Source of the DNA: Bacteroidota bacterium
GTDB lineage: Bacteria > Bacteroidota > Bacteroidia > Bacteroidales > ML635J-15
Length of the DNA stretch: 64,000 bases
Direction of reading: 5' to 3'
NCBI GenBank assembly: GCA_029558535.1
Contig: JAKQEK010000014.1
Coordinates: forward strand, 1 to 64,000
Positions 7,600 to 11,236 of this stretch are shown here, piece after piece. A program made the position numbers and the translations under genes. The notes beneath the pieces were generated by a model. It was not told where the DNA came from. It saw only the letters and a program-made list of their open reading frames with translations, and did no database searches. The first letter of the stretch is position 1. The number at the start of each line of letters is the position of its first letter.

Positions 7600-8988
7600 T
7601 TATTTTCTCACCTTTCTTATAAAATCTTCTACTTCGGGTACTCCACCCTGATACACCAGATAACCATTATATGGTTCACGTTCTGTAATTTCATCATTTA
7701 TCGGCGTAAGCATAAGCTTCTTGACTTCTTCCGGATCATCCGTTTGTCCTAATGCCCAACTTAATTTTATATATCCTACTTCGGGTAACATATTACCGGC
7801 AGGAATAATGCCCATCGCCATCATATCACGACCTGTATCATATACGTACATTTGCACATATCCCCAAATCGTTTGCAGTGTCATATACATATGAACTCCC
7901 GCAGCATGTGCACGTCTTATAGCCGGATAAATTTCCTTGTTAACGTGACCTAATCCTGTTCCGACAATAATAATTCCCTTGTATCCTGCATCTACTATAG
8001 CATCAATTACGTCCGGCTTCATTCCTGTATAATAATATACCATCGTAACTTTGTCGCTGAAATATGGTTTAATAATTACATTTCTGTCGTTACGCCGCTT
8101 ATTGTAATCTTTCTTTATTGGAGTTACCCCTTTTGTTGTAACCATTGCTACAGGGGTGTCGCCAATTGTTCTGAAGGTAGAACGATATGATGAGTGCATT
8201 TTTCTTACTCTTGTTCCTTTGTGTAACAAACCATACTCATCAGAAGTAGGCCCAAACATACAAACCAGCACTTCGGCAATATCAGAAGTCCCAGCAGTTT
8301 TCATTGCATGCTGCAGGTTTAATGCTGCATCGGAGCTTGGGCGATCTGACGAACGCTGTGAACCCACAAGTACAACAGGTACAGGTAAGTTTTGACACAT
8401 AAATGTCAACACTGCTCCCGTGTGATGAAGGGTATCTGTGCCATGACCAATAACGATACCATCAATTCCATTTTCAATTTCTCTGCCTATCGCTTTTGCC
8501 AGTTCAATATATTGCTGTGGACCCATGTTCTCACTAAAAACAGCAAAAATCTTTTCAGTATCAAGATTACAGATATCTGCAAGCTCGGGCACTGCCCCGT
8601 ACAATTCACCGGGTGAAAAAGCAGGAATTACTGCACCTGTTCTGTAATCAAGTCTTGATGCAATTGTTCCACCCGTTCCAAATAGTTTAACATGAGGCAA
8701 TCCTTCGGTATATGGAAACTGCTTTTCGGGAATTGCATAATTGGCTTTTTTATAGCCAACTTCTTTCATGTCAATAATTGTATTTATATCTATTCCGATA
8801 TTATAACCGGTAATAACCTTCATCACAATATGCTCATCATCATCATTAGAAGACCTCGGCAAAATTGTACCTTTAAATTCGCCCCTGGTTGTATTCATTT
8901 CTGCCTGTCCCCAAACACGAACATTAAATTTTTTCAACACGTCAAGAGAACGTCCTTTATACCCCTGAAAAAAATCTGTATTCTCCAT
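7600..8988 (-). CDS. gatD: Archaeal-type Glu-tRNA(Gln) amidotransferase subunit D (asparaginase-like)
   Basis: GatD releases ammonia from Asn or Gln and feeds it to GatE, which converts Glu-tRNA(Gln) to Gln-tRNA(Gln). The N-terminal 95 residues form the beta-barrel domain that separates GatD from plain asparaginases. The asparaginase fold then shows GTGGTIAS at 104-111 (the second Thr is the expected nucleophile), a later GHGTDTL (Thr-Asp pair), GSQRSSDRPSSDAA, and GTRVRKMHSSYR carrying the family Lys. The length (462) matches archaeal GatD (about 435-450), whereas type I/II asparaginases have about 330. The ATG lies 17 bases downstream of the gatE stop, so the two form an operon gatE-gatD. 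The alternative of a simple asparaginase is unlikely given the N-terminal domain and the adjacent GatE. Base composition resembles the neighbours. Confidence 0.93.
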   Translation of the reverse strand: MENTDFFQGYKGRSLDVLKKFNVRVWGQAEMNTTRGEFKGTILPRSSNDDDEHIVMKVITGYNIGIDINTIIDMKEVGYKKANYAIPEKQFPYTEGLPHVKLFGTGGTIASRLDYRTGAVIPAFSPGELYGAVPELADICNLDTEKIFAVFSENMGPQQYIELAKAIGREIENGIDGIVIGHGTDTLHHTGAVLTFMCQNLPVPVVLVGSQRSSDRPSSDAALNLQHAMKTAGTSDIAEVLVCMFGPTSDEYGLLHKGTRVRKMHSSYRSTFRTIGDTPVAMVTTKGVTPIKKDYNKRRNDRNVIIKPYFSDKVTMVYYYTGMKPDVIDAIVDAGYKGIIIVGTGLGHVNKEIYPAIRRAHAAGVHMYMTLQTIWGYVQMYVYDTGRDMMAMGIIPAGNMLPEVGYIKLSWALGQTDDPEEVKKLMLTPINDEITEREPYNGYLVYQGGVPEVEDFIRKVRK

Positions 8989-9005
8989 TATAAAATATAT
9001 TTCAA

Positions 9006-10982
9006 TTATTTAATACTATTTTCAACCAATGATTTCAATTCTGACAAATTAATATTACCTATTGCCAATGGTCTGATCTTGCCCATAACCCAATCTGTTT
9101 TGTTTTTTGGAGTATTAACTCTTGCTTCTTTATCAAATTCAGAACTTAAAACTTTTATCTTCGAAATCAAATCTTCCTTACTATACTTTTTAAAGTTTAT
9201 TGTTTTAAGAACAGATTCAAAATCTTTTTCAGGATATTGATATACTTCAGGTAACATCATTTCACCCAAAGGACTTTGGAAGTTATTTTTCAAGCAGAAT
9301 TGAATCATTTCTACAATCCTGGCATATGTAAAACCTTTTGCTTGATTGTAATGTCCTTCAACAAATTTCAGATTATGTCCGAACAATACTCCCGCCTTTT
9401 TTGGATCTGCACCGGACTCTATTGCTTGTTTGATATATGGAAATAAATTCTTACTTAGCAAATAATGATAAGTGTCTTCCGGAATTCCCCAAGCTATAAA
9501 TTGTGCAAGTCTATCCGAAATGTCATCCGGTATATTTTTACCTAAATTATCAATATGCTCTTTTGTCAATGGAATAGGCATTGAGTCGGTATCAGGATAC
9601 ATTCTGTCAGCACCCGGAAGTACACGTTCAAAAATAGTTGTGCCGTTTTCGAATGATTTTCTGGTTTCATTCGGAACACATTGAAAAGCCATTTTACATC
9701 TCTCTTCAATAGTTTCAAGAGCGCAGGCAATGTCAGCTTCAGGTCCCCAGAAAACTATAATTGCATCTTTTTCGTCATTAAAAGACAAATGCTTTTTAAT
9801 AACGCTGTAATCTGCTTCGGTCAATACCTGCTCTTTCATTTCCGAATGAATCATATTTGGTTTTTCGATACAGGCAATAACCTTAAGTCTGTCTGAAATT
9901 TCTTGAGCAAACATTATATCAGGCTGGTTAAACCAAGATAATATTCCTTTAAAATCTTTAAGATTTACCGCGAGAATTTTATATCCGTTATCTTTTGCAT
10001 ATTTAATGGCCGGATAATTATTAGTAAATTCATTTAAATCCAAATAAGCATACTCAATTTTCCATGCATCAATATCCTTAACCCTATTTAATAGTTCGTC
10101 TTTCATTCTAAGCAAAGACCACTGTCTGTAACACTCATTATGAGTCAGTTCAGGAATCCAGTTAGTATGAGCAACACCTTTTATCTCAACTCTTGTTCCA
10201 CCTTTACAACTAACATTTACATCCTCACGCCCTGCTCCCATTCCTGTTCTAACTTTTCCTGTAGAACGATTCAAAAAGCGTATATAATCGCAGGCTTCTT
10301 TAACCTCATCGGGGTTAACCATATCGGGATAAGTAACGGTTTCAATTAATGGCATACCAAGACGATCAGTTTTATAAATCCTTCGGTGACCGATATCACT
10401 AATTTCGCGGCACGAGTCCTCTTCGATACTTAATTGTATTAGTCTGACAACTTTATTTTTAAGTTGGATTTCTCCCTCCACACCAAGAATTGCAGTACGT
10501 TGAAAACCGGTTGGGATACTTCCGTCAAGATATTGTTTTCTTGTTATATGAACTTCTCCAACAACATTAAATTTACTTAAAATCGTAATTTCAAGTGCGA
10601 TATCCAATGCTTCTCTGTTTATTAAAAAAGGAGGAGTATCATCAACCTCATAAGTACAGGCATTTTCGTTATTTATACGATATACGATTTCCTTTTTTGT
10701 TTTAAACTCCATTAGTGCAGTACCATCATACTCGCCCAATTCACTCAAAGTCGGACGCATGTGTCTAATAACTTCTGCATCATATTCGTCATCTCCATGA
10801 AAAATTCCGGCAGGACAATGACAAAATAGTTTTTTCTTTGTTAATAATTGCTGGTGCACTTCTAGTCCCGACATAAACCCGATACGATTGTAATCGTCCT
10901 GTGTAGCTTCTTTCCGCGGTACATACCCAATCTTCTTCATTGTTGCAAGATAGTTGCTGTAAGGATCAAACTGATTTTTCAT
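9006..10982 (-). CDS. gatE: Archaeal-type Glu-tRNA(Gln) amidotransferase subunit E
   Basis: GatE binds and phosphorylates Glu-tRNA(Gln) and amidates it with ammonia from GatD. The cradle domain begins at about residue 34 with GLEVHQQLLTKKKLFCHCP, containing the Cys pair of the metal site, then TYEVDDTPPFLIN and the GatB/E core with SIEEDSCREI and DRLGMPLIE. An inserted AspRS-like GAD domain (about 310-440), the feature that distinguishes GatE from GatB, ends in FERVLPGADRMYPDTDS. The C-terminal helical and YqeY-like tail ends WVMGKIRPLAIGN. At 658 residues it is slightly longer than archaeal GatE (about 620-635) and far longer than GatB (about 480). A -7 box lies 32 bases upstream of the ATG. 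GatDE is described as specific to archaea, so its presence beside Bacteroidota genes suggests old transfer. Confidence 0.93.
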   Translation of the reverse strand: MKNQFDPYSNYLATMKKIGYVPRKEATQDDYNRIGFMSGLEVHQQLLTKKKLFCHCPAGIFHGDDEYDAEVIRHMRPTLSELGEYDGTALMEFKTKKEIVYRINNENACTYEVDDTPPFLINREALDIALEITILSKFNVVGEVHITRKQYLDGSIPTGFQRTAILGVEGEIQLKNKVVRLIQLSIEEDSCREISDIGHRRIYKTDRLGMPLIETVTYPDMVNPDEVKEACDYIRFLNRSTGKVRTGMGAGREDVNVSCKGGTRVEIKGVAHTNWIPELTHNECYRQWSLLRMKDELLNRVKDIDAWKIEYAYLDLNEFTNNYPAIKYAKDNGYKILAVNLKDFKGILSWFNQPDIMFAQEISDRLKVIACIEKPNMIHSEMKEQVLTEADYSVIKKHLSFNDEKDAIIVFWGPEADIACALETIEERCKMAFQCVPNETRKSFENGTTIFERVLPGADRMYPDTDSMPIPLTKEHIDNLGKNIPDDISDRLAQFIAWGIPEDTYHYLLSKNLFPYIKQAIESGADPKKAGVLFGHNLKFVEGHYNQAKGFTYARIVEMIQFCLKNNFQSPLGEMMLPEVYQYPEKDFESVLKTINFKKYSKEDLISKIKVLSSEFDKEARVNTPKNKTDWVMGKIRPLAIGNINLSELKSLVENSIK

Positions 10983-11013: not shown

Positions 11014-11021
11014 CAAATTTA
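11014..11021 (-). promoter_or_regulatory. -7 box for gatE-gatD
   Basis: The minus strand reads TAAATTTG, matching TAnnTTTG, 32 bases upstream of the gatE ATG. It indicates that the transferred-looking pair is expressed from a host-type promoter. Confidence 0.5.
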
Positions 11022-11236
11022 TATTTTGTTTAGGATAAAAACAAAATATATTTTTCAACCGTCAAATTATAATACAATTTGAAATAGACAATATATATAC
11101 TCATATCTTAAAGTTGTTAAATTCTTCAATTGATTGAAGATTTTAATATCTTTTCCGTTTTATTGCTGGACTTTACAACCCCGTTTACAGATTTCAAATC
11201 AGCCAAATGGCATATTTAGGACTCAATACTCAAAAC

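Follow-up and report, generated by a model that had tools for sequence, protein, structure and literature searches.

A GatDE-type amidotransferase in parts of the Bacteroidota, kept beside glutaminyl-tRNA synthetase and associated with a specific form of tRNA-Gln

The window analysed here is a 64,000-nucleotide stretch (contig JAKQEK010000014.1, positions 1 to 64,000, assembly GCA_029558535.1) from a member of the Bacteroidales, lineage ML635J-15. The host genome comprises 5.8 Mb in 513 contigs, with 88.45% completeness and 4.62% contamination. The window encodes both subunits of a GatDE-type amidotransferase. Genomes, contigs and loci are cited below by working numbers (G, C and L). The features that define the system are as follows:

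9006..10982, minus strand: gatE, GatE-type subunit, 658 amino acids (open reading frame, NCBIfam, nearest structures 2d6f and 1zq1, tree)
7600..8988, minus strand: gatD, GatD-type glutaminase subunit, 462 amino acids (open reading frame, Pfam, NCBIfam, alignment)
8665..8667, minus strand: GatD T108 codon, equivalent to T101 of Methanothermobacter thermautotrophicus GatD (alignment, 11/11 rows)
8434..8439, minus strand: GatD T184 and D185 codons, equivalent to T177 and D178 (alignment, 11/11 rows)
8200..8202, minus strand: GatD K263 codon, equivalent to K254 (alignment, 11/11 rows)

A first-pass annotation of this DNA had described two intact, adjacent subunits separated by 17 bases. Open reading frames and NCBIfam cut-offs bear this out, with gatD starting 17 bases downstream of gatE. 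GatD scored 493.5 bits against TIGR02153 (cut-off 324) and 490.6 bits against NF003217 (cut-off 310), higher than the 370.2 bits obtained with the type I asparaginase model TIGR00519. GatE clearly exceeded the cut-off of TIGR00134 (377.3 versus 319.55 bits) and barely that of NF003107 (458.6 versus 456 bits), while six GatB models with cut-offs of 315-680 bits returned only 49-122 bits. A phmmer search of the PDB likewise placed archaeal GatE and GatD on top and bacterial GatB and asparaginases far lower. Pfam domains recognized in the pair were GatD_N, Asparaginase, Asparaginase_C, and GatB_N; neither GAD nor GatB_Yqey was matched by Pfam in the window GatE. Residues T108, T184, D185, and K263 of GatD align with T101, T177, D178, and K254 of 2d6f_A, which we take to be the catalytic residues, and are invariant in all 11 aligned bacterial GatD rows. 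The N-terminal domain (GatD_N by Pfam) and the Thr, Thr-Asp, and Lys positions that the annotation had read as kept are indeed retained.

The C-terminal tail of GatE is divergent, since the alignment to TIGR00134 covers residues 30-496 only; that to NF003107 spans residues 28-655. The tail is the least conserved region among 13 aligned GatE proteins, whereas the catalytic domain is highly conserved. In an AlphaFold model (mean pLDDT 80.3, pTM 0.74), it is present and helical but divergent in sequence. Foldseek ranked three archaeal GatE chains first (2d6f_D, 1zq1_C, and 2d6f_C; E-values of 4.7e-36 to 1.2e-33, TM-scores by target of 0.71-0.75), with GatB chains following at 5.1e-19 to 1.0e-11. 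None of the tools gave a hit to GAD itself; both archaeal structures contain that insertion, and the match of the model to them suggests that the window GatE may have kept it.

Phylogeny agrees with these assignments. Bacterial GatE together with three archaeal GatE rows (one partial) separated from eight GatB rows, all from one family, with 100% support and a long-branch warning. The placement inside bacterial GatB that would have contradicted the annotation did not occur, and family models, tree, and fold concur on a true GatDE pair rather than GatB. Bacterial GatE rows form one group (support 91, below the level that the program stars) beside the archaeal group (99, starred). The window GatE clusters with the five other same-family genomes placed in the tree (97, starred; the remaining GatE-positive family members were not included), and recent import by the host genome is therefore disfavoured. 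The archaeal sampling is small (three rows, one partial), and the topology would fit an old transfer as well as an ancient presence. One row (L076) was excluded from the GatE alignment owing to a stop codon inside its match (L076:8001-9971). A plasmid search for additional archaeal GatE yielded one haloarchaeal piece, a Natrinema thermotolerans plasmid (L127:3001-4900) carrying a gatE with a frame break that is absent from the gene table shown.

The pair is widespread in parts of the phylum. Of the 61 genomes in the relatives set (the host and 60 relatives), 21 have a gatE above the cut-off and 22 a gatD. G027 was also counted as GatE-positive, bringing the number to 22, although its 306.9 bits are below cut-off and the match is confined to the beginning of the model. 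At least 566 loci, from at least 590 matched stretches, encode a relative. The 80 loci kept are all bacterial; 79 carry titles of Bacteroidota or of taxa within, and the remaining one (L050), titled Aminicenantes, has a GatE that lies among Bacteroidota GatE in the tree. In a phylum sample, 22 of 296 genomes surpassed the GatE cut-off, namely the host and 21 genomes outside its class. A one-off acquisition by the host genome does not agree with this spread or with the family clade. One GatE from outside the window's class (L148, G216:C73) is nested in the Bacteroidales GatE group and perhaps reflects an inter-class transfer.

Counting the window, 70 of 81 loci carry gatD directly downstream of gatE on the same strand; in seven of the other 11 the sequence stops no more than 1.5 kb from gatE, and four have room yet show none. 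Besides gatD, no family recurs in more than 19 of the 81 loci (open reading frames of at least 100 amino acids, five places either way of gatE), and operon context therefore provides no indication of function. Two arrangements depart from the usual one. At L001:217-1443 (minus strand, G057), gatE and gatD are separated by a gene for an M28 peptidase bearing a Por secretion tail, and L436 (G042:C463) has gatD without a gatE match, with a 379-amino-acid open reading frame upstream in the usual place of gatE.

Because both proteins pass the NCBIfam cut-offs, NCBI annotation would be expected to assign them the names GatD and GatE, and such proteins are therefore no novelty in databases. Two reviews describe GatDE as restricted to archaea (PMC8007984, PMC9499178). 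Nothing pairing GatDE with Bacteroidales or Bacteroidota was found in open-access literature, and co-mentions of GatDE and Bacteroidetes occur in PMC8007984 and PMC4206432.

GatDE is encoded alongside glutaminyl-tRNA synthetase (GlnRS) in most genomes that carry it. The glnS search proposed by the first-pass annotation identified a full-length gene in the host (C423:3571-5148, 710.7 bits). Of the 61 genomes in the relatives set, 54 have a GlnRS above its cut-off, among them 20 of the 22 GatE-positive ones; the two exceptions, G027 and G039, are 87% and 88% complete and split into about 450 contigs. A phylum-level set was assembled from the 21 GatE-positive genomes and 19 GatE-negative genomes picked from the same families. 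GlnRS is found in 19 of its 21 GatE-positive members, and G311 shows a short match only, although its congener G115 has the gene. Replacement of GlnRS by GatDE, as the annotation had considered, is hence ruled out, and GatDE is to be regarded as an addition rather than a substitute. The picture for GatCAB is different. No match to GatA or GatB_Yqey appeared in the 88.45%-complete host genome, and GatA was detected in one (G043) of the 19 GatE-positive genomes searched from the relatives set, host included, versus 16 of 21 at the phylum level. In G347 (99% complete), which encodes GatDE and GatA and has no GlnRS match above cut-off, tRNA-Gln could be a substrate of GatDE and GatCAB alike. Elsewhere in the host genome, C493 holds a separate asparaginase-like match (184.5 bits to the GatD model) with one stop within.

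The window itself contains no tRNA gene, and the tRNA-Gln genes, lying outside it, were out of sight of the annotation. The host encodes four on C207, arranged as two tandem pairs. In each pair, the second gene has diverged (type B), and the first (type A) already covers both Gln codons. A covariance model built from 11 genes retrieved 19 type-B genes scoring 79.7-97.4 bits in 15 of 31 genomes of the window's family (f1), of which 18 were read one by one. Score alone does not draw a clean border, as the next match (79.3 bits) is an ordinary tRNA-Gln of another family with the C20 D-loop described below. Within f1, type B accompanies GatE in 13 of 13 GatE-positive genomes and occurs in 2 of 18 GatE-negative ones, two of which (G008 and G021) gave no readable tRNA-Gln. 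The two carriers, G004 and G010, are 90% and 88% complete, and G004 is a close sister of the GatE-positive G015 in a GluRS (glutamyl-tRNA synthetase) tree with one faulty row (G007).

Type B combines a defective T-stem with otherwise maintained helices. Positions 50-64 and 51-63 both fail to pair in 15 of the 18 type-B genes that were read (10 of the 11 model sequences), whereas 69 of 71 other tRNA-Gln rows in the same alignment have no broken T-stem pair and the remaining two have one. Pairing of the acceptor and anticodon stems is held by two-sided changes. Position 33 is G in the six UUG genes, instead of U33, and U in the twelve CUG genes. A37 is present in 14 of 18 genes; as a lead only, we take this base to be a GluRS identity element in Escherichia coli tRNA-Glu. 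A strict rule that GatE occurs only with type B was rejected, since GatE-positive genomes outside f1 carry a tRNA-Gln with an intact T-stem. Two tRNA clusters of the host bin (G000) deserve mention. One (C74:9517-9750, L204) combines a tRNA-Gln(UUG) and a tRNA-Glu unlike those of the host, with gene-encoded CCA, and is perhaps mobile or foreign. The other (C426:3664-10827, L198) is part of a 14-kb contig with 16 tRNA matches in about 7 kb that resembles a phage or mobile element, or is foreign.

Type B and the tRNA-Gln of GatE-positive genomes outside the family share one D-loop feature, a C directly after G18-G19 (C20), where most others have U. The association between this base and GatE is the new part of the findings. 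Among the 56 genomes of the relatives set with a readable tRNA-Gln (none was read in G008, G021, G041, G044, and G047), C20 occurs in 22 of 22 GatE-positive and 6 of 34 GatE-negative genomes (G004, G010, G036, G037, G042, and G051). Four of 22 matches in one tRNA-Gln collection proved to be other tRNAs and were left out; among the matches listed, tRNA-Gln-like ones of at least 57 bits left unread are at G017:C32, G027:C314, and G028:C66 (type B and its neighbour). Correlated evolution of GatE and C20 is supported by a Pagel-type test on a single-gene GluRS species tree. G001, G046, and G060 lack a usable GluRS row, which leaves 53 genomes in that tree, 21 of them GatE-positive. A dependent model outperformed the independent one with a likelihood ratio (LR) of 33.1, which became 32.4 after collapsing a near-copy clade (43 genomes) and 37.0 without G004, G010, and G042. 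None of 150 simulations under independence reached the 32.4 observed with the collapsed clade (largest 9.4), with one start per simulated fit and three for the observed data. The signal appears separately within f1 (18 genomes, LR 12.1, chi-square p 0.017) and outside it (25 genomes, LR 17.0, chi-square p 0.002). The fitted model contains no loss of C20 while GatE is present and no gain of GatE without C20.

At the phylum level, C20 is found in 20 of 21 GatE-positive versus 12 of 19 GatE-negative genomes (p 0.017, without tree correction); in G240 and G169, the UUG tRNA-Gln alone was read. At this scale, C20 appears to be the more widespread state. As the feature was picked after viewing sequences of the relatives, this set provides only a partly independent check.

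The bacterial enzyme is a confirmed GatDE that is widespread in parts of the phylum, is maintained together with GlnRS, and goes with one particular form of tRNA-Gln; its function is a matter of prediction from sequence. The reading we favour, at a probability of roughly 0.48, is that a genuine GatDE has long been kept beside GlnRS and most likely amidates Glu carried by the C20 subset of tRNA-Gln. The chemistry of both subunits is established for the GatDE family. GatD would release ammonia from an amide donor, and GatE would activate Glu on the mischarged Glu-tRNA(Gln) with ATP and convert it to Gln. The substrate would be tRNA-Gln with the G18-G19-C20 D-loop rather than all tRNA-Gln, and in the window's family it would be the divergent type-B copy, most members of which lack two T-stem pairs and which probably escapes ordinary translation. 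GluRS or another enzyme would put Glu on the C20 tRNA, which GatDE would then amidate. Archaeal GatDE is reported to rely on the D-loop and on base pair 1-72 to discriminate between tRNA-Gln and tRNA-Glu (PMC9499178), and recognition by D-loop shape is described in PMC4810234. By analogy, the bacterial link would fit the archaeal recognition rule, although the 1-72 pair here is U-A where the archaeal one is A-U.

Apart from that pair, several observations weigh against this reading, and its weak point is the first step, the source of Glu on the tRNA. The annotation had proposed looking for a non-discriminating GluRS. The host encodes a single GluRS, on C298, and the residue equivalent to Thermus thermophilus Arg358, the discriminating Arg, is kept in all 57 GluRS read (21 GatE-positive, 36 GatE-negative), which speaks against mischarging of tRNA-Gln by GluRS. 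Helicobacter pylori GluRS1 has an Arg358-equivalent residue without such an effect, as reported in PMC3927822. The association itself is also imperfect. G036, G037, and G051 are rated 99-100% complete and have C20 without GatE, G354 has GatE without C20, and in the wider phylum C20 is common in GatE-negative genomes. Furthermore, a stricter independent-pair test in treekit gave four supported pairs, none reversed, too few for significance. The feature was chosen post hoc, and the C20 tRNA outside the family resembles an ordinary decoding tRNA-Gln.

A more specific version would make GatDE the dedicated partner of a duplicated, non-decoding tRNA-Gln, producing Gln-tRNA from Glu for a purpose outside translation. 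Non-decoding status is hinted at by the broken T-stem, by G33 in the UUG copies, and by A37. The T-stem defect resembles the avoidance of EF-Tu by the non-proteinogenic tRNA-Gly of Staphylococcus aureus, where T-stem pairs 49-65 and 51-63 set EF-Tu binding (PMC9976931). Both are duplicates with altered T-stem pairs. The S. aureus tRNA serves the cell wall, and type B may by analogy act outside translation; unlike it, type B has a Gln anticodon, and no downstream enzyme is known. If true, this would amount to a private amino-acid-on-tRNA pathway parallel to the standard one, with GlnRS and ordinary tRNA-Gln supplying the ribosome. We consider this version possible, with the odds clearly against it.

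With GlnRS in nearly all GatE-positive genomes, no new charging route is needed if GatDE serves general repair, acting as a fidelity device that fixes stray Glu-tRNA(Gln) made by GluRS on any tRNA-Gln, while C20 is an old form that tends to be lost in the same lineages. The persistence of C20 without GatE at the phylum level suits this account. The association among relatives, strong and one-directional, does not, nor does the presence of type B in every GatE-positive family genome when type A of the host already covers both codons. General repair is judged unlikely, though it deserves attention. The tRNA-Gln link could also be an artefact of shared ancestry and feature choice. C20 was defined once the sequences had been inspected, GluRS alone underlies the species tree, and the phylum-level replication carries no tree correction. 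Against such an origin stand the simulations on the tree and the significance of both halves of the relatives set on their own, which leave the artefact improbable.

About equally improbable is a GatDE that has left tRNA for another amidation substrate or acts mainly as an asparaginase or glutaminase. The poorly conserved GatE tail, the missing GatB_Yqey match in the host genome, and the membership of GatD in the type I asparaginase family point that way. However, the catalytic domain of GatE is highly conserved, gatE and gatD stay together, GatD_N is kept, the host has its separate asparaginase-like match at C493, and the association is with tRNA-Gln. A misbinned archaeal contig or gene pair might come to mind given the fragmentation and contamination estimate of the assembly. 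The clustering of the window GatE with gatE of five same-family genomes refutes this, and the closest named records among the matches listed are titled Bacteroidales bacterium; contamination has a negligible probability.

Compared with known systems, the pair resembles archaeal GatDE (2d6f from M. thermautotrophicus, 1zq1 from Pyrococcus abyssi) in its two subunits, GatD_N and asparaginase domains, four catalytic residues, GatE catalytic domain, and best sequence and fold match. It differs in its bacterial host with GlnRS, the U1-A72 pair of tRNA-Gln, the divergent GatE tail, and a GatD whose C-terminus extends about 17-18 residues beyond those of both archaeal chains. GatDE and GatCAB perform the same chemistry, and GatE shares its catalytic fold with GatB; GatB model scores far below cut-off, the full tree split, and the lack of a detected GatA in the host set the pair apart. 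Type I asparaginases share the asparaginase domains with GatD, which differs in its higher scores with the GatD models, its GatD_N, and its pairing with gatE.

A proposal cited in PMC9499178 places GatDE already in the last universal common ancestor, and the frequent occurrence of GatDE together with GlnRS within parts of a bacterial phylum bears on it. The system would also represent a natural case in which two routes to Gln-tRNA may coexist, and the D-loop link offers a way to test in bacteria the recognition rule described for archaea. A tRNA-Gln whose T-stem is broken and which is kept almost only alongside GatDE would point to a new use of Gln-tRNA.

Minor features complete the locus. The annotation had noted a promoter box before gatE and deduced expression from it:

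11014..11045, minus strand: promoter-like TTTG-N20-TAAATTTG upstream of gatE (pattern match)

The site exists, but chance alone would give 6.9 matches to this pattern across the window and 17 occur, so it supports expression of gatE weakly. An antisense open reading frame of 182 amino acids (8692-9240, plus strand) overlaps the gatE-gatD junction and is probably spurious.

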